From NCBI GenBank assembly GCA_029006155.1, contig JAQXGF010000008.1:60111-124110 (forward strand): a DNA stretch of 64,000 nt. The letters are read 5' to 3'. This stretch comes from Lachnospiraceae bacterium (GTDB lineage Bacteria; Bacillota; Clostridia; Lachnospirales; Lachnospiraceae). The notes beneath the pieces were generated by a model. That model did no database searches and was not told the origin of the DNA. It was given only the letters and a program-made list of their open reading frames with translations. The position numbers were made by a program, and so were the translations under genes. Shown here piece by piece: positions 50,505-63,842 of this stretch; position 1 is the first letter of the stretch; each line of letters begins with the position of its first letter.

Positions 50505-51346
50505 TCAATCCCAATACTCCACCTTAAATCCATTCTCCTGGCAATATTGGTCGACTTTCGATCCGCGGTAGCAGCGGATGGTCGTGGCGCGGTTGATGAT
50601 CCATGGGCCGATGAAGTCCGGGTCGTGGCGGAATTCGACGTACTGCAGGCGGTTGCAGCCGTGGAACGCCCATTTGCCGATATAGCGGACGCTCTCCGGG
50701 ATGCGGACGGTCGTCAGCCGTGTACATTTAAAGAAAGCACTGTCCTCAAGCACCTGCAGGGAACCCGGCAGTTCGATCGAGTCGAAGCCACAGAAATAAA
50801 AAGCCTGTGATCCGATGCGGCGCAGATGCTCCGGAAAATGAATGTTTTCGAGTGATTTACAGCGGTAAAAGGCCAGATCACTGATCTCAGAAATACTGTC
50901 CGGGAGCCACAGCGCGGTCAGGGATTTGCATTCAGAGAAAGCATATTTCTGAATTTTCCGGATACGGTTGGTATTGACGGGGGAGTGAAGGTGACGGTCT
51001 GCAGACGACGGCTCTCCTGAAACAGGCTCTGCGTGAGTGTATCAAGGGAACCGGGAATCTGAGCCTTTTGCAGCGCGTCGCATCTGGAAAAGGCGGCGGA
51101 GGCAAGTTCAGAGACCTGAGACGGCAGCGCGACGGCTTCCAGAGAGACACACCCGCAGAATGCACGCGCTCCCACGCTGGTAAGTCTGGCCGGAAACTGT
51201 ACGCTGCGGATGACTCCACGATTCTGAAAGGCTTCCGGTGCGATTCCGCGGATATGGCTGGGAAGACACATATCCTCCCGCAGATACTGTCGGGCATTGC
51301 TGCGGGTGATGATTTTACTTCCCTGAGAATATGAACTGTAGTACAT
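50505..51346 (-). pseudogene. BspA-like leucine-rich repeat protein, frameshifted
   Basis: N-terminal part MYYSSYSQGSKIITRSNARQYLRED... in one frame; LRR homology (YAFSECKSLTALWLPDSISEISDLAFYRCKSL...) continues in another frame to the 50505 stop; break near the G5 tract at 50979-50983. Confidence 0.75.
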
Positions 51347-51435: not shown

Positions 51436-51464
51436 TTGACAGATGGCACAAAGCTATGTATAAT
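51436..51464 (+). promoter_or_regulatory. Promoter of leader RNA B
   Basis: TTGACA (51436-51441), 17-nt spacer, TATAAT (51459-51464). Confidence 0.8.
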
Positions 51465-51470
51465 GTGTTC

Positions 51471-51717
51471 AGATGGAGCCGTGCGGTCTGGGGCGATGAA
51501 CGGATAAATACTGCGAATCGCGATAGGGCGACGGACAGAAAAATAAGGCGGGAGCCTTCATATGGAAAGACAGAGCGGCGACTGGATGAAATTTCCAGAC
51601 AGAATGCACTGCCGTACAGTCGGCACGCAGCGGTCTTTCCGGAAGAGTAAGCAATGATTTGCAGACGCATTTACTAAGCGACAGAGATCTTTAAAAAGAG
51701 ATTTCTGTTGCTTTTTT
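51471..51717 (+). ncRNA. Structured leader B: putative divergent cobalamin-type riboswitch with terminator
   Basis: CTGGATGAAATTTCCAGACAGAATGCACTGCCGTACAGTCGGCACGCAGCGGTCTTTCCGG shared in pattern with leader A; terminator GCGACAGAGATCTTTAAAAAGAGATTTCTGTTGCTTTTTT. Confidence 0.6.
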
Positions 51718-51826: not shown

Positions 51827-54800
51827 ATGCAGAAAAAGAATGCAAGAAGGTTTCTCAGTATGCTGCTGGCCTGCCTGATGATTCTGACTACGCCGATGAG
51901 CGTGCTGGCAGAAGAGAGCGGGTTCTTAGCGACTGAGGACGCGGAAATTCTGGATGCAGATGCAAATGGCAGTGATGCGATCCAGGGTGCAGACACAGAT
52001 GGAACAGAGCAATCCGGACTGGAGATTACCGGAATAGAGACGGTAGCTTCATCAGAAGAAACATTGCGCTTCACGGAGGATCTGGCGGAGACCGAAGTAG
52101 CGTATGTACAGGGTGAGGAAGCGCAGCCTCTGAAGGTGATGGTACAGGGCGATGAGATCACTTATCAGTGGCTTCGCAGCGAGGACGGAGCGCAGTTCAC
52201 CGCGATCGAAGACGCGACTGAGCCGGAATACTTCCCGTCGACGGATGAGGTCGGGACAGTCTGGTATCAGGCAGAGGCCACCAGTGCGGATGGTGAGTTA
52301 GTCACGAGCCATGTGATCAGGATTACGGTGGCAGAGGTGCCGGGCGAAGCGGCAGAGACAGAGGAGATGTCCGAGGCCGAAGAGACCGAACCGATGTCTG
52401 AACTGGAAGAGATCGCAGAGACAGAAGCCCAGAGCGAGACTGAGGCCGCGACGGAGACCGAAGCTGCAGCAGAAGAGACCGAGACAGAAAGCCTCATCGC
52501 AGAGCTGAATGCGGAAGAAAATGATGCGATGCTTCTGGCGGATGATACCGTGACCAGACCGGAGCCGATCACGAAGGAGCAGATTCAGATTTCGGACGAT
52601 CTGGATCCAAGCGGAACGTATAAGGCGCTGACCGAGACAGGGTTGACGGTGAATCGCGGGGAAAATGAATGTTTTCCACAGCAGCTGACAATATATAAAA
52701 CGGAAATTGATAAAAGTGCCAGAAATCTTACACTGGCAGTGACAGGAAGAACAAATATTAAGTTGGCTGATGTAACATATGCCTCAGTAGATGCTTTGAA
52801 AACATATGATCCGGACCATGATACAGCATTTAAAAACAATTATGTTGTCAGTGACGGATCAGAAGCCGGACAGCAGCAACTTGCCAACCTGTTTGGAGAG
52901 GCAGTTTTTACACAGTTAAAGGCACGGAACAATCGTGTATTTTATATCGAATATGTTGAACGTAATAGTGTTTCAAAGAAGAATTATGGTGTCGGAAGTG
53001 GCGTATTGATTGAAGAAGTACCGCATATATCTGATGCAGATGAAGTCGCACAGCAGCCGGATATCAAATCAGATACGGTAGGAAATACGCATAAAACATT
53101 TGAACTTCCGCAAACGGGAACAGTCACCTTTACCGTTGCGTTGAAGGACGATAAGGTAGCCCAGAACAAACAGGCCATGGGTACGCTGACCTATGAATGG
53201 TATCGAAACACAGAAAACAGTTATGATGGTGCCGAAAAACTGCAGGACGGAATTGATGGAACATTTGCGATTACCAGCCAGATTGCTGCAAATGGAAGAA
53301 TTAAGAACTTCAACAGTAAATGGACAACAAAGGCGACCAGTAAACTTGGCACGACATGGTACTTCTGTAAGGTGACGAATACACTGTCAAATGGAAGCAG
53401 TGTCTCTTATTATTCTAAAATTGGTTCTGTGACAGTAACAGGTCCAGAGGAACCAGTATTTGGAATTATTACCGGAGAAGATCCAGTAGGAAGCATTTCT
53501 ATAAGCGCTGAGGATATGGTTCCGGAACGGTCGGATCTGAAAGACGGAGCTGGAAATGTATTTCAGGATCCTGGACCAGTCGGAAGCATTTTAAATACTT
53601 CCTTACTGGTTTATCCGTCAGATACGATGACAACGGTGATTAAGCGTGCCTGCCTGTTGAATGATGTTCAGATTGGCATTCGCGGTACGGGTGGAATGGG
53701 CAGTTATATTTATCAGATTGGTGCTCGGGAAGAGTTCGACCGTGGTCGTGACAGCGGCTGGATGGGCAGTTTAAATGGCTGGTATACGAATACCGGATTT
53801 GACAATTATAAAGTCGCAGATGGCACATTACAGCCGGGGGATATCATAGCGCTGAAGTATACGACAGATCTTGGCAGCGACATTGGGGCGGCTTTTGATG
53901 ATACTCAGAAAAGTAAGAAACTGAAGTCACTGAGTATTTTGCCGGTATCAGTAAAAGGGAAGGTGAGTTCGGAACTGGATTGCCTTGGCGGAGAATTTGA
54001 TCCGGATGTGCAGAAGTATGAAATAGCTTTCCGGGCACAACAAGAAGGAATGATATCAGATCCATGGATGGGTGTAAGTTTATTGCCGATGGCGGAAAAC
54101 CAACAGAATCGGGTTCGTGTATTTGTCGGGGAAAAAGAATATCGTGGCAAGTATAATATTCCGATTACAGAAAAAGAAACGACGATTACGATAAAGGTCG
54201 AGGCAGTGCAGGATGGCGTGGAGGATCTGGCACCAATGATCTACACGATTGTGGTTCATAAGGATCCGTCTTTGCTTGGTGACGGGGATGTGATAGTCAC
54301 AGAGACCGCATCGGATGGGCATCCGAATACACCCAAGGTATACTTTTATGAATATGGATATGAACCAAGTGGAGGAGCTGGGACGGGAGAACTGAGTGCT
54401 TCTTATACAGCAGATCTGCAGGTGGAGAGTGGTATAGAGGCGTATGAGGCCAGAGATCTGACGGTATCTCTGAAAAAGGTTCCAGAAGATGTTTTAGCAG
54501 TACTGAAATATCATGATCAAGAATGGAACTTTGAAAATGGAACAGTGACGGTAAAAGATGGAGCATTGTTTACCGGGACTCGGATGTATACAATATATCT
54601 GGAAAATCGTGCAACGGGTGAGAAAGAAAGCTATTATCTGAAGCTTCAGAAAAAGCCAACGCGGTTGACCAAGTATAGTTTTCTTCCAGTTGGGACTGGA
54701 AATGTAGAATATACAGAAATATTTCAGGGGCAACTGGAAGGGACATTTTTTCAATTGGATGCAGGAGGGAAAGAAACCGGGGAAATTGGTTTTACACCAT

Positions 54801-56992
54801 TGATTACAGATTATAATGTATATCTTAGCGGGGCAATTGAAGCTGTTACTTTTGATAAATATAGTGTGGCTACAGCAGCATCAAGCTATGCTATGCGTTT
54901 AAAGGTGAATGGAGAAATTCTTTACGAAAGTGAATACAGTACAAACTGGGCCGGTTTTGTTGCGCAGGCAGAAGAGGAACTTCCGATCAGTTTGAAGGAA
55001 GGAATCAATAATATCTCTTTGGAAATTTTTGATTTAACAAATCAGAAGTGTACTCGCACCTATACGCTTCATATCATAAAAAAAGGGATGACAGCTGCAG
55101 AACTGCAGGAGAAAATTCTGGCATTGCCAAAAACAGAAGATCTGAGCTACAGCAGGGATCGAAAGACGGTAAACCGCCTGAAAGAGACTTATGACAAACT
55201 GAGCGATGCAGACCAGAAGGAGATTTCGCAGGAAGCAACGGAAAAGCTGGAAGCTGCAGTGCGTCGGATCGAGGAGCTGTATCAGGATGGAATCACAGCG
55301 ATCGAGACGCTCAAAAATCTGATCGATAGCTACAGCGGAAAGGTAACAGAAGCAAATTATAAAGAATATGAAGAAGTTGTAACAGAATCAAAGCGGCAGT
55401 ATGATGCATTGACTGACTGGATTTATGAAAAATTTATGTCAGAATGCATAGTGCAGTATAATGCAATGAATAGTGCAGTGAAAGCTGTTCAGCGCGGAAA
55501 GATTGCAGCGAATGAGACCATTGGTCAGGCGACGGACTATATTGATGACTTTATGGTTTCGGCCAATGCCTTTAATCTGACATTGGGTGCTGCGGAAGAT
55601 GCATATCCGGTGAATTTTAAGGACTATGTTGCTTCAAACTTGAGAAGCGGTGAGGCCTGCCTTCCTTTTAATACACCTGGAAGAATAAAAATCAGCATTG
55701 AAGATCCGTCCATCTTTACGATTAAGTCGGTAATGTCTACTTATATTGATAAAGGTCTGGGTGGCGGAAACAAGCCATATGAGAATGAACTGTACTACAT
55801 GATCCCGCTGAAAGAAGGGACGACGACCTTCACCGTCACACTGACCGATGAGACGGGAACTTATTATGGGCAGACACCGCGGATGATCGTGCATGTCAAC
55901 AGCGACGGAGAAGCCTCCATCGAGAAGCTTGCGGAGAAGTTGACGAATATCAACACGCTTCCGTATACGACCAAATACGATACATGGTATTACTGGCAGG
56001 GAACAGAAGGGGCGGAGTTCTCCTTCAAGGTAAACGGCACAGGCGCGACGGTCGCGGTATGGAGCACAGACGGAAAGCAGAAGACCGAGTATCCGGTCGA
56101 TGCAAACGGAAATGTAACGGTGCTGCTAAAGGATGGCTATAATCCGATCGAAGTCAGCGCAGTGTATGAGGGATCTCGTGTAACGCAGGTGTATGGTATG
56201 CGCGGAAAAGCACTGACTTACACACTGACAAATGAGACAAGGCCGGGACAGCCTTTTAAACAGGGAGACCAGGCGATTCTCCAATTTACAGGGATAAGTA
56301 CACCAGTGCGGAAGATTTTGAGAATTTATAATCCGTCGACGATGCAGATTTGGTTTGATACGGATATGCCATATCAGGCACAGATTATTTCCGGCGGTAC
56401 ACAATATACTGCTGGAGCGATTACTTTTACCATAACGGGCTCAGGAACGATTAATCTGAGCAGTGGTCGGTTGTTTGAACGCTGGTGGGGAGAGCCACTG
56501 TATTCGGAGACGGCACAGGGAAATACGGGAGAGATTGCAGGACAGTCTGAGGGATTTTTCTCCCACATCCCGGATCTGACCTTTACGGCAGAAGTAAATC
56601 CGGACTATAAAGCAGACATTAAGGTGACACCGACATTGAATGGTGGAAATACGGTAAAGCCGGGGCAGACGGTGACGATGTCGCTGGATGAACTGGATCT
56701 TGATGAGATCACAAAGGTATATCCGATTGATACCACGAACACATTTACAAAACTGCAGACAGCACAGACGCAGTTTACGACCAATATTCCGGGACTTTCC
56801 AAGGTCGTATCGGAGGAATATACGCGGAAAGCAGCGACACTGAAGATGTTGAAGACAGTTACATTTACCGTGCCGGAGGATACACCGGACGGTGATTATA
56901 TGATCCGGGGTGGACTGGTTTACGTCATGCATGGAGATGCAAATTATGGCATTTCACCGGATTATTGTTTAGATTGCAGATTGCCGATGTGA
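51827..56992 (+). pseudogene. Giant secreted surface protein with DUF4430-like and cadherin/Ig-like domains; N-terminal ORF of a frameshift-split gene
   Basis: Signal peptide MQKKNARRFLSMLLACLMILTTPMSVLAEE; DUF4430 signature SGWMGSLNGWYTNTG...LQPGDIIALKYTTDLGSDIG; frame ends 28 nt into the ORF at 56965. Confidence 0.7.
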
Positions 56993-58644: not shown

Positions 58645-58673
58645 TTGACAGTACCCGTCAGGCTACGTATAAT
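58645..58673 (+). promoter_or_regulatory. Promoter of leader RNA A
   Basis: TTGACA (58645-58650), 17-nt spacer, TATAAT (58668-58673). Confidence 0.8.
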
Positions 58674-58679
58674 AAGACG

Positions 58680-58889
58680 GAGATGCCGGAAGGAAATGTT
58701 CCGGCAATATTTGACAAATCAAAATGCGGAGAGCAGTGCCGTGAACAGGTTAGATTCCTGTACATAAAAGTGCGGTGCCGTAAAGTCGGCGAGCGGCGGT
58801 TTTCCGGTGATTAGGATAGAGGATATTGTTCGCGCATAGAGAACACCTATTAAGAGTAACGCCCCTCAAAAGGGGGTGTTGCTTTTTTT
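58680..58889 (+). ncRNA. Structured leader A: putative divergent cobalamin-type riboswitch with terminator
   Basis: ATGCCGGAAGGAAATGTTCCGGCA hairpin; GCAGTGCCGTGAACAGGTTAGATTCCTGTACATAAAAGTGCGGTGCCGTAAAGTCGGCGAGCGG; terminator AACGCCCCTCAAAAGGGGGTGTTGCTTTTTTT with competing AACACC upstream. Confidence 0.65.
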
Positions 58890-58999: not shown

Positions 59000-60355
59000 A
59001 TGGAAACAAAGCGGAAAAAACGTCTTATGAACGCAGTCATGGTCATCCTGATCCTGGTCATCGCGGCATGCGGAGTGCTCGCGGCAGGCAGTATCCGTGG
59101 CTGGTTCGATACTGGGACGGAAAGCTGGATCACAAGTGGACACGTAAGTGGTGTAGTCAGTATCGAGCGGAACGGGATTGGCTACAGCCTGCAGGATGGA
59201 CAGGGGATCAAAGATGGCGATGTCATCGAGACGAAGCAGGGATCGACGGCGGCTCTGCAGCTCGGTGAGTCTAATACGATCGTATTAAATGAAAATACGG
59301 AACTGACGGTCACATCATCCGCGGCGGATGCCGTGGAGCTTTCGGTCGGCAAAGGGGAACTGTTTGCGGACATTCCAAAGGCAGGGAAAGCGTTTACGCT
59401 GAAGCTGGATGGGCATGAGGCAACGGTCAGCGACAGCGTATTTTCAGCGAGTGTCCAGACGGGCAGCATGACGTTTGATGTCCTCATGGGCGAGGATGAC
59501 GTGACGGCTTCGGATGGTACGGCAGAGACGGTCGCATCCGGTGAGCGGCTGCAGGTGAGCGAGGGCGGGGATGGCAAGGTATCTGCGTCGGTACAGAAGC
59601 TCTCTGCCGGGTCGATGAACGAGTTCGCGATCGTGCAGGCCCAGAAGTGCGACCGTAAAAACGAGCTGTGCTTTTCCGTCGCAGAGCTGCAGAAGGTGCT
59701 CGATGACCGTGCGGCAGAGAAGCAGGCAGCGCTGGAAGCGAGCCTGAACGCGGAAAAGATCACGCTGGATGCGACAAAGAAAGCAGGGGAGTCCGAGTCT
59801 GAGACCGGTGCGGCTGGCACTGGGGAGACCCAGAAGGATGGGCAGGCAGATGCTTCCGGCAGCGGTTCAGCGGACGGCAGTTCGGTGGAGGAGTACACGC
59901 CACAGGACAATGCCGCATCACAGGGCGGAGGGGACGCATCTTCCGATATACTGGAATGTACGATCGAGATCCGCTGTGACACGATCCTTGACAACATGGG
60001 GAACCTGACCGCAGGCAAGGAAACCTACGTGCCGGCCAACGGCTGCATCCTGAGCACGAGCACCGTAGAATTTGAAAAGGGCGAGACGGTCTATGACGTC
60101 TTATCCCGCGTCTGCTCTTATGCGGGCATCCAGATGGAAGCCTCGTGGACGCCGCTTTACAACAGCTACTACGTCGAGGGCATCAACAACTTATATGAAT
60201 TTGACTGTGGCAACCAGTCCGGCTGGATGTATAAGGTAAATGGCTGGTTCCCGAACTATGGCTGCTCTTCCTATTATCTGGAGGACGGCGATACGATCGT
60301 CTGGACGTATACATGCAATGGCCTCGGCGCAGACGTCGGTGGCGGTATGGGCTGA
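59000..60355 (+). CDS. Membrane-anchored FecR-like + DUF4430 (transcobalamin C-terminal-like) protein
   Basis: N-terminal TM; FecR-like region (GIKDGDVIETKQGSTAALQLGESNTIVLNENTELTV); C-terminal SGWMYKVNGWFPNYGCSSYYLEDGDTIVWTYTCNGLGADVG. Confidence 0.8.
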   Translation: METKRKKRLMNAVMVILILVIAACGVLAAGSIRGWFDTGTESWITSGHVSGVVSIERNGIGYSLQDGQGIKDGDVIETKQGSTAALQLGESNTIVLNENTELTVTSSAADAVELSVGKGELFADIPKAGKAFTLKLDGHEATVSDSVFSASVQTGSMTFDVLMGEDDVTASDGTAETVASGERLQVSEGGDGKVSASVQKLSAGSMNEFAIVQAQKCDRKNELCFSVAELQKVLDDRAAEKQAALEASLNAEKITLDATKKAGESESETGAAGTGETQKDGQADASGSGSADGSSVEEYTPQDNAASQGGGDASSDILECTIEIRCDTILDNMGNLTAGKETYVPANGCILSTSTVEFEKGETVYDVLSRVCSYAGIQMEASWTPLYNSYYVEGINNLYEFDCGNQSGWMYKVNGWFPNYGCSSYYLEDGDTIVWTYTCNGLGADVGGGMG

Positions 60356-60377
60356 TGGAAAGCAGGTGGAGGACAGT

Positions 60378-63300
60378 ATGAAGAACTATAAAGGACTATA
60401 TCGGCTTTTGAATGTGACGATGGCATGCTCGCTGGCGGCCAGCCTGTCGCTGTACCCGGCACAGGCCGAAGAAACAGCGACACAGGCACAGGAAAAGGCG
60501 GCAGCAAAGGATACGGAAGTTTCCGCACAAAGCGCACCGGAGGAGACGCAGGCCCCGGTGCAGACAGAGACAACGGCGGCAGAAGAGAAGCAGACATCCG
60601 GGACTGAGGCGGGCACGGAAAAAGAATCCGAGGTGGCATCTGAGGCCGGGACAGAGGCTTCCGGCCAGGATGTGACGGATAAGAAGGACACAGAAGCCGG
60701 GACTGCCGAAACGGAGTCTGATGCAGAAAAAAGCTCGGAAGCGGATGATAAAAAGAAGGATGAAAATACAAAGAAGGACCAGGCCGGTGAGACAGACCCG
60801 GCACTGGCGCAAGCGCTCTCCTTTACGGTAAGTACAAAGGATGGCACCACGCTTCCGGTCTCTGCCATCCAGACACCGGCACAGGTGACCTGCCAGGGGA
60901 CGACGCACCCGGTGGACTATGCGGATGGTATGTTTCAGGTGACAGTACCAAAAGGGACGGATGCCCTGCAGCTTTCCGTGCAGAAGGCGGGAAAGGACTG
61001 CGGGACGGGCCTTGCGGATCTCTTATACATTGCGCGTTGGGGCGGATATTTTACCGAATCCGGGGACAAGTGGCAGCTCTGCCCGTACCTCTTAGACGGC
61101 GATACGGCGCTGTACAGTGCGGCACAATTATCCGGTGTCAATGTATATCCACTGCAGCTGCAGGACGGCACCTGCACCCTCCCGCTCGAAAAGTTTACCT
61201 TCAAAGGCTCCGGGATGAGCGTCGAGCAGCGGACGGTCTACGGTATCACCGATGAGGACGGGACGTATGCGGAGCTTGCACTCGGTGTGCTCGGTGAGAA
61301 CGGGACGATGGGCGTGCGTGCGGTGCTGCTCGTGAAGTTTGCGGATGATGAAAAGGATTCGCAGGAGACAAACGGACGTACTGGTGGTGCTGACAATGAA
61401 AAAGATTCAGAAGAGATAGAAGAATCTGAGCTGGAAAGCGAGACTGCATCCGAGGCAGAGACCGAAACGGAGCTCTCTATGGAAACATCCTTGGAACTTA
61501 CCTCCGGGATCGCCCTCTATGCATCCCCGGCTCAGATCTCGGATGCCTACACCGCGACCGGGCAGGAGCTTGCCGGGTCGGCGAAGCAGTCGATCCCGTC
61601 GATCGGCTCGATCAATGGCGAGTGGCAGATTTTAGGGCTTGCGCGGAGCGGGCAGGAAGTCGATGCTTCGGTCTACAGCCAGTACAAGGCAAATGTCATC
61701 CAGGCGGTAAAGGAATGCAAGGGCGTCCTGCATGAGAAGAAGTACACGGAATACTCCCGTGTCGTCCTGGCGCTTACAGCGCTTGGCGAGGATGTCACGA
61801 ACGTCGGCGGGTATAACCTGTTAGAGCCGCTATCGGACTTTGACCAGACGGTATGGCAGGGCGTAAACGGTGCGATGTTTGCACTGATCGCATTTGATTC
61901 CCATAAGTATGAGATCCCGACGGCGGCAGCCGGGAAGACGCAGACGACGCGGCAGAAACTGATCCAGTATATTTTAGATCATCGTACCCCGGATGGCGGC
62001 TGGGCGATGTCCGGCTCGGTGGCAGACCCGGACCTGACCGGCATGGGGATCCAGGCACTGGCCCCGTATTATGACAGCAACGCACAGGTAAAGGCAGCGG
62101 TCGATACGGCGCTGCAGCGCCTCTCGGAGCTTCAGCTCTCCGATGGTTCGTATGCGTCCGGCGGGTCGAGCACTTCGGAGAGCTGCTCGCAGGTCATCGT
62201 GGCACTTACCTCCCTTGGGATCGACCCGAACACGGACAGCCGGTTTATCAAAAACGGGAAATCCGTGATGGATGGCCTGCTTTCGTTTTCCGTCGCAGGT
62301 GGCGGATTCAAGCATTTATCCTCCGGCACGATGAACCAGATGGCGACCGAGCAGGGCTACTATGCACTGACGGCCTATGAGCGGTACAAAAACGGGCAGA
62401 ACCGGCTCTACGACATGACGGATGTGGCAGTGAAGTCCGACTATGATAAAACGGCAGAAGTACAGAGGCTGATCAAAGCACTCCCGGCGGTCTCAAAGAT
62501 GACGTATGAACAGGTCTCCTCCGTGCGGGCTGTGGTTTCCCTTTATAACTCCCTGAATGAGACACAAAAAGCTCTGATTCCATCAGAAGAAAAGGCAGCC
62601 CTGCAGCAGGCATCCGAAAAAGCGGACGAGCTGGAAGTATCGCATGTAAAGGGGATCATTTCCGCGATCGGGAAGGTGACCTTGGATAAGGACAAACAGA
62701 TCACCGAGGCGAACACGGCCTACAATTCTTTAAGTGAGACGCAGAAAGCGAAGGTTGGCAATTACAGCGTGCTGGAAAAGGCATTAAAGGAGCTGCAGAA
62801 GCTCAAAGCAGGAGCATCCTCCGGCAGCGGCTCTGGCGCTGGATCCGGCAAGGAAAATACGACGAAAAAGCCGTCCGGTTCCACGAAATCCATCAACCTC
62901 TCTTCCGGGAAGCGCGGCGGCACGGCGGGTGGCAGCACATCCACGAAAGCGGGCGGCACGTCCACGAACAAAGAGGGGGAGAGTGAGACGGATGCAAATG
63001 GAAAGGTCATCAAACGGGAATCCGGAAACCGCACCGGTGGCACGGCCGCAGTCCATGCGGAGACGTCCACGGCGGGCACGGTATGGACGGTGGCTGCAAG
63101 GAAGGTGACATCTGAGATCGCGGATGTCCTGTCCGGGACGAAGGAACGGAAAAGGCTCCCGGCTTCCGCAGATGACTATTCGCAGGACCAGATCGCGGCG
63201 CTGACGGACACGTATCAGGCGTATGCGGCGCTGAGTGAGGATGAGCAGAAGGCGGTGCAGGAGTCCCCGCGCTACCAGAAGTTTGAAAAAGCCTTAGAAA

Positions 63301-63842
63301 GTCTTGGCACCCGTTACCATTATGATGAGACGACCGGGACAGACCTGCGGGACAATGCGGATGATGCGCTCCCGTGGTACGTACAGCTCTCGGTACGCCC
63401 GCAGCTGCTCACAGAAGAGCAGGAGCAGAAGATCAAAGACGTGCTCGGAGAAAAGAGTGAGATTTTCTCGATGAGTGAGATCGATTTTGTCAATACCTTA
63501 GACGGCGAGGGCTGGGAGCCGGAGCAGCTCGTGAAGGTGAAGCTGCCGATGGTGGACCTTGGCGACTATGAGACGGCGGTGATCGTCCACCAGAAGCAGG
63601 ATGGCTCCTTAGAGTTCTTAGATGGGAAAATTTCCGGGAGCGACATCGTATTCCAGGCATCGGAGTTTTCTGAGTACGGCATTGCGGGCATGATGGGCGA
63701 TACGGCCAACCTGCTGGATGCGGCCGGAAATGACAGCCGGAAGGTTCCGGTATGGCCGTTTGCAGCGGGCGGCGGTGCGGCAGCTTTCTGTCTGCTGGTT
63801 CTGGTGCTCGTGCGGCGCGCGGGGAAGAGACATGAAGCGTGA
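60378..63842 (+). CDS. Secreted, C-terminally anchored protein with prenyltransferase/squalene-cyclase-like alpha barrel
   Basis: Signal peptide MKNYKGLYRLLNVTMACSLAASLSLYPAQAEE; repeats TPDGGWAMSGSVADPDLTGMGIQALAPYY and LSDGSYASGGSSTSESCSQVIVALTSLGID; C-terminal TM + RRAGKRHEA. Confidence 0.75.
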   Translation: MKNYKGLYRLLNVTMACSLAASLSLYPAQAEETATQAQEKAAAKDTEVSAQSAPEETQAPVQTETTAAEEKQTSGTEAGTEKESEVASEAGTEASGQDVTDKKDTEAGTAETESDAEKSSEADDKKKDENTKKDQAGETDPALAQALSFTVSTKDGTTLPVSAIQTPAQVTCQGTTHPVDYADGMFQVTVPKGTDALQLSVQKAGKDCGTGLADLLYIARWGGYFTESGDKWQLCPYLLDGDTALYSAAQLSGVNVYPLQLQDGTCTLPLEKFTFKGSGMSVEQRTVYGITDEDGTYAELALGVLGENGTMGVRAVLLVKFADDEKDSQETNGRTGGADNEKDSEEIEESELESETASEAETETELSMETSLELTSGIALYASPAQISDAYTATGQELAGSAKQSIPSIGSINGEWQILGLARSGQEVDASVYSQYKANVIQAVKECKGVLHEKKYTEYSRVVLALTALGEDVTNVGGYNLLEPLSDFDQTVWQGVNGAMFALIAFDSHKYEIPTAAAGKTQTTRQKLIQYILDHRTPDGGWAMSGSVADPDLTGMGIQALAPYYDSNAQVKAAVDTALQRLSELQLSDGSYASGGSSTSESCSQVIVALTSLGIDPNTDSRFIKNGKSVMDGLLSFSVAGGGFKHLSSGTMNQMATEQGYYALTAYERYKNGQNRLYDMTDVAVKSDYDKTAEVQRLIKALPAVSKMTYEQVSSVRAVVSLYNSLNETQKALIPSEEKAALQQASEKADELEVSHVKGIISAIGKVTLDKDKQITEANTAYNSLSETQKAKVGNYSVLEKALKELQKLKAGASSGSGSGAGSGKENTTKKPSGSTKSINLSSGKRGGTAGGSTSTKAGGTSTNKEGESETDANGKVIKRESGNRTGGTAAVHAETSTAGTVWTVAARKVTSEIADVLSGTKERKRLPASADDYSQDQIAALTDTYQAYAALSEDEQKAVQESPRYQKFEKALESLGTRYHYDETTGTDLRDNADDALPWYVQLSVRPQLLTEEQEQKIKDVLGEKSEIFSMSEIDFVNTLDGEGWEPEQLVKVKLPMVDLGDYETAVIVHQKQDGSLEFLDGKISGSDIVFQASEFSEYGIAGMMGDTANLLDAAGNDSRKVPVWPFAAGGGAAAFCLLVLVLVRRAGKRHEA

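Follow-up and report, generated by a model that had tools for sequence, protein, structure and literature searches.

Organization of two similar leaders

In the stretch of DNA analyzed here (64,000 nucleotides from a Lachnospiraceae bacterium, hereafter the window), two similar leaders were found on the forward strand, each located between a promoter and a gene. In leader B, the promoter (51436..51464) is followed by an aptamer-like core (51564..51640), a hairpin designated P13 (51646..51675), an intrinsic terminator that directly abuts P13 (51676..51717) and a gene (51827..56992) encoding a 1721-aa surface protein with cadherin-like and DUF4430 domains (Pfam). The divergent gene upstream of this leader (50932..51345, reverse strand) resembles the LRR_5 genes that flank other copies, as judged by sequence similarity and by Pfam matches of homologues. 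Leader A has the same order of promoter (58645..58673), core (58728..58805), P13 hairpin (58815..58851) and terminator (58852..58889), and it precedes a gene (59000..60355) for a membrane-anchored protein with FecR-like and DUF4430 domains (Pfam DUF4430, E 2.6e-18). The next gene in this operon (60375..63842) encodes a surface protein with an alpha/alpha-barrel domain (61590-62426) of squalene-cyclase/transcobalamin-like fold. A previous sequence-only reading had described perfect TTGACA-N17-TATAAT promoters and intrinsic terminators for both leaders, and this description was accurate: both sigma-70 promoters have 12/12 consensus positions and a 17-nt spacer, and both terminators have 15-17 bp stems plus a T run, located ~110 bp upstream of the gene.

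The window contains exactly two occurrences of the sequence TGCCGTAMAGTCGGCNNGC (51610 and 58776), and shuffled sequences gave a mean of 0.19 matches even with 3 mismatches allowed. The proposal that the two leaders share a core above chance level was borne out by six copies in the genome and by a covarying structure. Two other proposals had to be modified. The GGTnAGATTCC block, which had been compared with the cobalamin riboswitch core, is present but corresponds to the P4/L4 hairpin of the element. Likewise, the leader sequences are as had been described, but the element reaches further, to the 3' P13 hairpin (51646-51675 in leader B) that pairs back to the core.

Distribution of the leaders

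We identified 13 copies in total, six in the window's own genome and seven elsewhere. Besides leaders A and B, the copies of the own genome are located on contigs C27, C138 and C118 (at 13562 and 19697 of the latter). The seven outside copies belong to four other Lachnospiraceae genomes (three Blautia and one of the window's genus) and one Eubacteriales MAG, and no further source of the subfamily is known so far. Among 249 genomes of the family, the exact motif was found in the own genome alone. A genome-wide pattern scan returned four real homologues and five chance matches (L032, L034, L037, L038 and L039), and one other candidate (L013) was rejected as a motif within a coding gene. The similar intergenic settings of the copies, next to LRR genes, mark some of them as paralogous duplicates.

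A covarying four-way-junction core

The fold was derived by hand from an alignment of the five own-genome copies first found. From 5' to 3', P1 and a short bulge are followed by P2 (the counterpart of P3 in cobalamin riboswitches), the P4 hairpin, P5, P6, P2' and P1'. Together these form a four-way-junction core (P1/P3, P4, P5 and P6), after which come P13, the terminator and the gene. P5 is CAG/CUG and P6 is CCG-UANAGU-CGG. In leader B, these elements correspond to P1 (51564-71/51633-40), P2 (51575-80/51626-31), P4 (51582-98), P5 with a TGCA loop L5 (51600-11) and P6 (51611-24); in leader A, P4, P5 (L5, TGCG) and P6 are located at 58745-61, 58763-77 and 58777-90, respectively. This helix plan, with a short P6 within ~80 nt, is that of AdoCbl-II riboswitches.

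In the five own-genome leaders, 95% of cells are paired and two-sided changes occur in 13/25 pairs; with eleven leaders from five genomes, the latter number increases to 20/25. The covariation score of the eleven leaders was 0.655 versus 0.281±0.027 for shuffled alignments, and did not exceed 0.135 (<=0.135) when the partner strand was slid. We also built a joint alignment of 32 sequences in which the leaders and a group of leaders preceding cbiD (see below) keep the same helices, with compensatory changes in P5 (AU:17/GC:11) and P6 (UA:18/CG:12) across the groups, although this alignment was fitted to the model and its counts lean towards the structure.

The 7-nt L4 loop, a feature typical of the class, is lost in two own-genome copies (L011 and L012, on C27 and C138), which may have decayed or become respecialised.

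P13, kissing loop and terminator

The P13 hairpin (GRTAG...CTAYC) is standard in 64/65 cells over the 13 copies, and its loop contains a tetramer that can pair with the 3' end of L5. Such an L5-L13 kissing loop has been described for cobalamin riboswitches (PMC9600662). In leader B the TGCA of the P13 loop (51660-51663) pairs with the TGCA of L5, and in leader A the CGCA (58833-58836) pairs with TGCG. Over all copies, the L5:L13 pairs are TGCG:CGCA (seven copies), TGCA:TGCA (four), AGCA:TGCT (one) and a single mismatch (one), which amounts to 51/52 Watson-Crick cells with changes at two positions (shuffle mean 43.1, about 1e-4). The loop tetramers were chosen by eye, and an exact complement was found in 12/13 P13 loops. 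Thus, the kissing loop characteristic of the cobalamin riboswitch clan is present and covaries across the 13 copies. As a separate observation, the P13 loop of one own-genome copy (L031, C118:19697) carries ~60 additional nt, inserted between the kissing tetramer and the 3' arm.

The distance between the start of the 5-nt P13 3' arm and that of the terminator is 4-6 nt in 13/13 copies, so that the terminator stem begins <=1 base from the end of this arm in every copy; the two structures abut without overlap in 12/13 copies and overlap by one base in the remaining one. A search for a conserved antiterminator or another partner of the terminator 5' arm found none (z-scores of alternative duplexes from -2.0 to +2.0), which is why the switching step described below is put forward as a proposal. 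One candidate, a 7-bp CGUUGCC:GGUAACG pairing, was rejected, being present in two copies only (SUG67b and SUG700).

Relationship to known riboswitch families

Rfam searches of leaders A and B, both at gathering thresholds and at E<=10, gave nothing relevant, and no cobalamin model reached E=10. At its gathering threshold (36.5 bits), RF01689 had no match in the window, and a genome-wide search with this model up to E=10 found none of the six copies; its matches in the own genome are mainly weak and fall on canonical cobalamin riboswitches. The B12 box of RF00174 is absent from the leaders, which have AGTC and then GGC only and lack AGGA-ACCTGCC, in agreement with the earlier remark that no clear canonical box was visible. 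That reading had suggested cobalamin covariance models as a check and the lack of a significant match as the first part of a refutation. The check itself was negative, with neither RF00174 nor RF01689 matching at gathering or, in leaders A and B, up to E=10. The refutation was nevertheless overturned because the reciprocal search retrieved cobalamin-type leaders.

For this reciprocal search, we used two models. The first (R1), built from five own-genome leaders only and searched over 396 genomes of the family, found the six own copies and four foreign matches. Of these, L026 is a canonical RF00174 riboswitch (112.9 bits), L023 belongs to RF01689 (41.9 bits), L024 is a cbiD leader (RF00174 27.7 bits, under the cut-off) and L025 was attributed to chance. 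Three further candidates (L078, L082 and L083) were, like L025, dismissed as chance or weak. The second model (R2), built from 11 leaders and searched over 64 Blautia, 47 own-genus and 392 order genomes, scored the cores of leaders B and A at 84.6 and 81.8 bits, respectively, and found two further true copies (L062 and L077). Its 21 distinct foreign matches at E≤1e-4 were all of the cobalamin type. Among them, 18 precede cbiD, as indicated by the CbiD signature GYTTGSCA 250-425 bp downstream and confirmed by TIGR00312 in three cases, and one of the 18 passes the AdoCbl-II threshold of Rfam; the others are L088, which precedes a BtuF-like protein, L081 (RF00174, 114 bits) and L092, which looks canonical by sequence. 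The leaders are therefore homologous to accepted RF01689 members, as their model retrieves L023 and L065 (both above gathering) together with cbiD leaders. The idea of a divergent cobalamin riboswitch subtype is supported, since almost everything that the leader-built model finds elsewhere is an AdoCbl-II or cobalamin leader.

A group of 14 AdoCbl-II-like leaders before Blautia cbiD (L063-L076) was also observed, of which only L065 passes the RF01689 gathering threshold (1/14). The Rfam model thus under-detects this clade at its curated threshold.

Genes downstream and neighbouring features

DUF4430 proteins are encoded behind most copies, including the two in the window and L046, L047, L050, L051, L052 and L053; in G438, the downstream protein is DUF4430+FecR-like on the basis of its sequence. 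Single polypeptides of L046 and L050 contain an alpha/alpha-barrel segment followed by DUF4430, which is the domain order of transcobalamin. Vertebrate transcobalamins carry DUF4430 at their C-terminus (PMC4350170). In the window protein, the barrel has a profile match to squalene-cyclase-type proteins (3e-5), and its predicted fold (pLDDT 77.9) resembles prenyltransferases, cyclases and also transcobalamin. However, the barrel alone is not specific, because a PDB sequence search returned terpene cyclases and prenyltransferases and no transcobalamin, and transcobalamin 8ixt appeared only at rank 46 (E 2.6e-3) in the fold search. An ECF transporter ATPase gene follows in L051 and L053 (two genomes), and B12 ECF transporters are known (PMC5997447). 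The C138 copy precedes a sugar-type solute-binding protein. We infer the function of DUF4430 in bacteria; with this function, the DUF4430, alpha/alpha-barrel and ECF ATPase context fits predicted control of corrinoid biosynthesis or transport genes.

The own genome has 12 canonical cobalamin riboswitches. For 4/13 copies, a canonical RF00174 riboswitch is located 150-350 bp away in divergent orientation on the opposite strand. In addition, a BspA-type LRR_5 gene is found divergently upstream of most copies (window 50932-51345, reverse strand; L046 4188-5228; L047 1519-2340; L050 1417-2301; L051 10505-11383; L093 305-1123). At four loci, the space between the LRR_5 gene and the leader contains a canonical cobalamin riboswitch on the strand of the LRR_5 gene, which suggests that this gene is corrinoid-regulated.

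Two other neighbours were noted. A Clostridiales-1 RNA (RF01699, 96 bits; L051:11810-11968), a member of an sRNA family of unknown function (Rfam), is located 75 bp upstream of a leader copy on the same strand in Blautia sp. SUG67, and may share a transcript with it. A xylose-isomerase-like TIM-barrel gene (PF01261) adjoins corrinoid loci in two genera (L046 3232-4161 and L051 2230-3228).

Interpretation and alternative explanations

Based on the element layout, the covarying helices and kissing loop, and the homology to cbiD leaders and Rfam AdoCbl-II members, we consider it highly probable that leaders A and B represent a small, unannotated and divergent AdoCbl-II-type cobalamin (corrinoid) riboswitch subfamily, predicted to act as an OFF switch. 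It is most likely that they shut off genes for surface proteins capturing B12-type compounds when the cell has enough. In the proposed mechanism, a corrinoid (AdoCbl or a relative) would bind the junction, the L5-L13 kissing loop would lock and P13 would form. The terminator, which starts where P13 ends, would then fold and turn off the putative surface corrinoid-capture genes (DUF4430 and alpha/alpha-barrel, elsewhere with an ECF transporter), while without ligand P13 would be absent and the polymerase would read through. In repressing corrinoid riboswitches P13 is separate from the terminator, whereas in the one known activating corrinoid riboswitch P13 itself is the antiterminator (PMC10653944). 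We infer the OFF sign from this published rule together with the essentially non-overlapping P13 and terminator observed here. Several features speak against the AdoCbl-II-type assignment: the lack of any Rfam cobalamin match to leaders A and B up to E=10, the absence of the canonical B12 box and the GGGAA strand, J6/3 being CRN in the leaders versus AUA in the cbiD group, and the lost L4 loop of the C27 and C138 copies, along with the sugar-type gene of the latter.

With the B12 box lost, J6/3 altered and L4 missing from two copies, a changed ligand specificity is conceivable. The leaders could be descendants of cobalamin riboswitches that kept the fold and now respond to cobinamide, a base-off cobamide or one with a different lower ligand, a different upper ligand or a related metabolite. 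Variation in corrinoid selectivity is known among cobalamin riboswitches (PMC9600662), J3/4 (with GGGAA reduced to a purine pair) differs from AdoCbl-II as does J6/3, and next to the standard cobalamin riboswitches that adjoin four copies, another sensor for the same ligand would seem superfluous. On the other hand, Cbl-II-type sites tolerate sequence change and the neighbouring genes fit ordinary corrinoid capture. Such a change appears rather unlikely. We give a comparably low chance to the arrangement in which a descendant with changed specificity, for instance for cobinamide and other incomplete corrinoids or for one particular cobamide, would share its intergenic region with a classical B12 riboswitch and sort corrinoids together with it at the surface-capture step.

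An activating corrinoid switch, in which ligand-stabilised P13 would block termination, is improbable. An activating example exists (PMC10653944) and the leaders yielded no antiterminator; however, the known example uses P13 as antiterminator, an arrangement at odds with the abutting P13 and terminator described above, and corrinoids normally repress uptake genes. Still less probable is a structured leader unrelated to cobalamin (binding a protein or another metabolite) with a convergent likeness, which would agree with the lack of an Rfam match. This reading is disfavoured: the corrinoid gene context, the 21/21 cobalamin-type foreign matches and the helix order, P6 loop and kissing loop shared with cobalamin riboswitches argue against it. 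Finally, chance similarity or a duplicated promoter-terminator cassette lacking a functional RNA fold, suggested by the similar intergenic regions beside LRR genes, is refuted by covariation (compensatory changes in 20/25 pairs from five genomes) and may practically be dismissed.

If the AdoCbl-II-type assignment is correct, the leaders would add a minimal branch of corrinoid riboswitches that Rfam misses and mark a regulon in Gram-positive gut bacteria (Lachnospiraceae) that comprises transcobalamin-like surface proteins. To our knowledge, B12 capture in Lachnospiraceae is less studied than that by Bacteroides lipoproteins. The latter has been investigated (PMC6143338). The leaders make it possible to ask directly whether surface proteins of the DUF4430/alpha-barrel kind serve in corrinoid-regulated capture, and to ask how much divergence a cobalamin aptamer tolerates without losing ligand binding. 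No published description of this group was found among the open papers searched, which is not proof of absence.

Comparison with known systems

The corrinoid riboswitches of P. megaterium metE and A. halodurans cobT (PMC10653944) resemble the leaders in the kissing loop, P13 and terminator logic; they fall outside the divergent subfamily, and the leaders differ in that no antiterminator was found. With the cobalamin riboswitch (RF00174), the leaders share the P3-P4-P5-P6 four-way junction, a GGTGAAATTCC-like P4/L4, the L5-L13 kissing loop to a P13 expression-platform hairpin and a transcription terminator, but they are without the B12 box AGTCAGGA-ACCTGCC, the long P6 extension and the GGGAA strand. 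AdoCbl-II (RF01689, clan CL00101) has in common with them the outer helix, P3, P4 with a TGAAAT-type loop, P5 and a short P6 with a UA(n)AGU loop in ~80 nt, and its Rfam-scoring members L065 and L023 are retrieved by the leader model. In contrast, the leaders score under any reported threshold of RF01689, have TGCR in L5 where AdoCbl-II has CCGTTAC, differ in J3/4 and J6/3, and precede predicted surface corrinoid-capture genes, whereas AdoCbl-II riboswitches precede cbiD.
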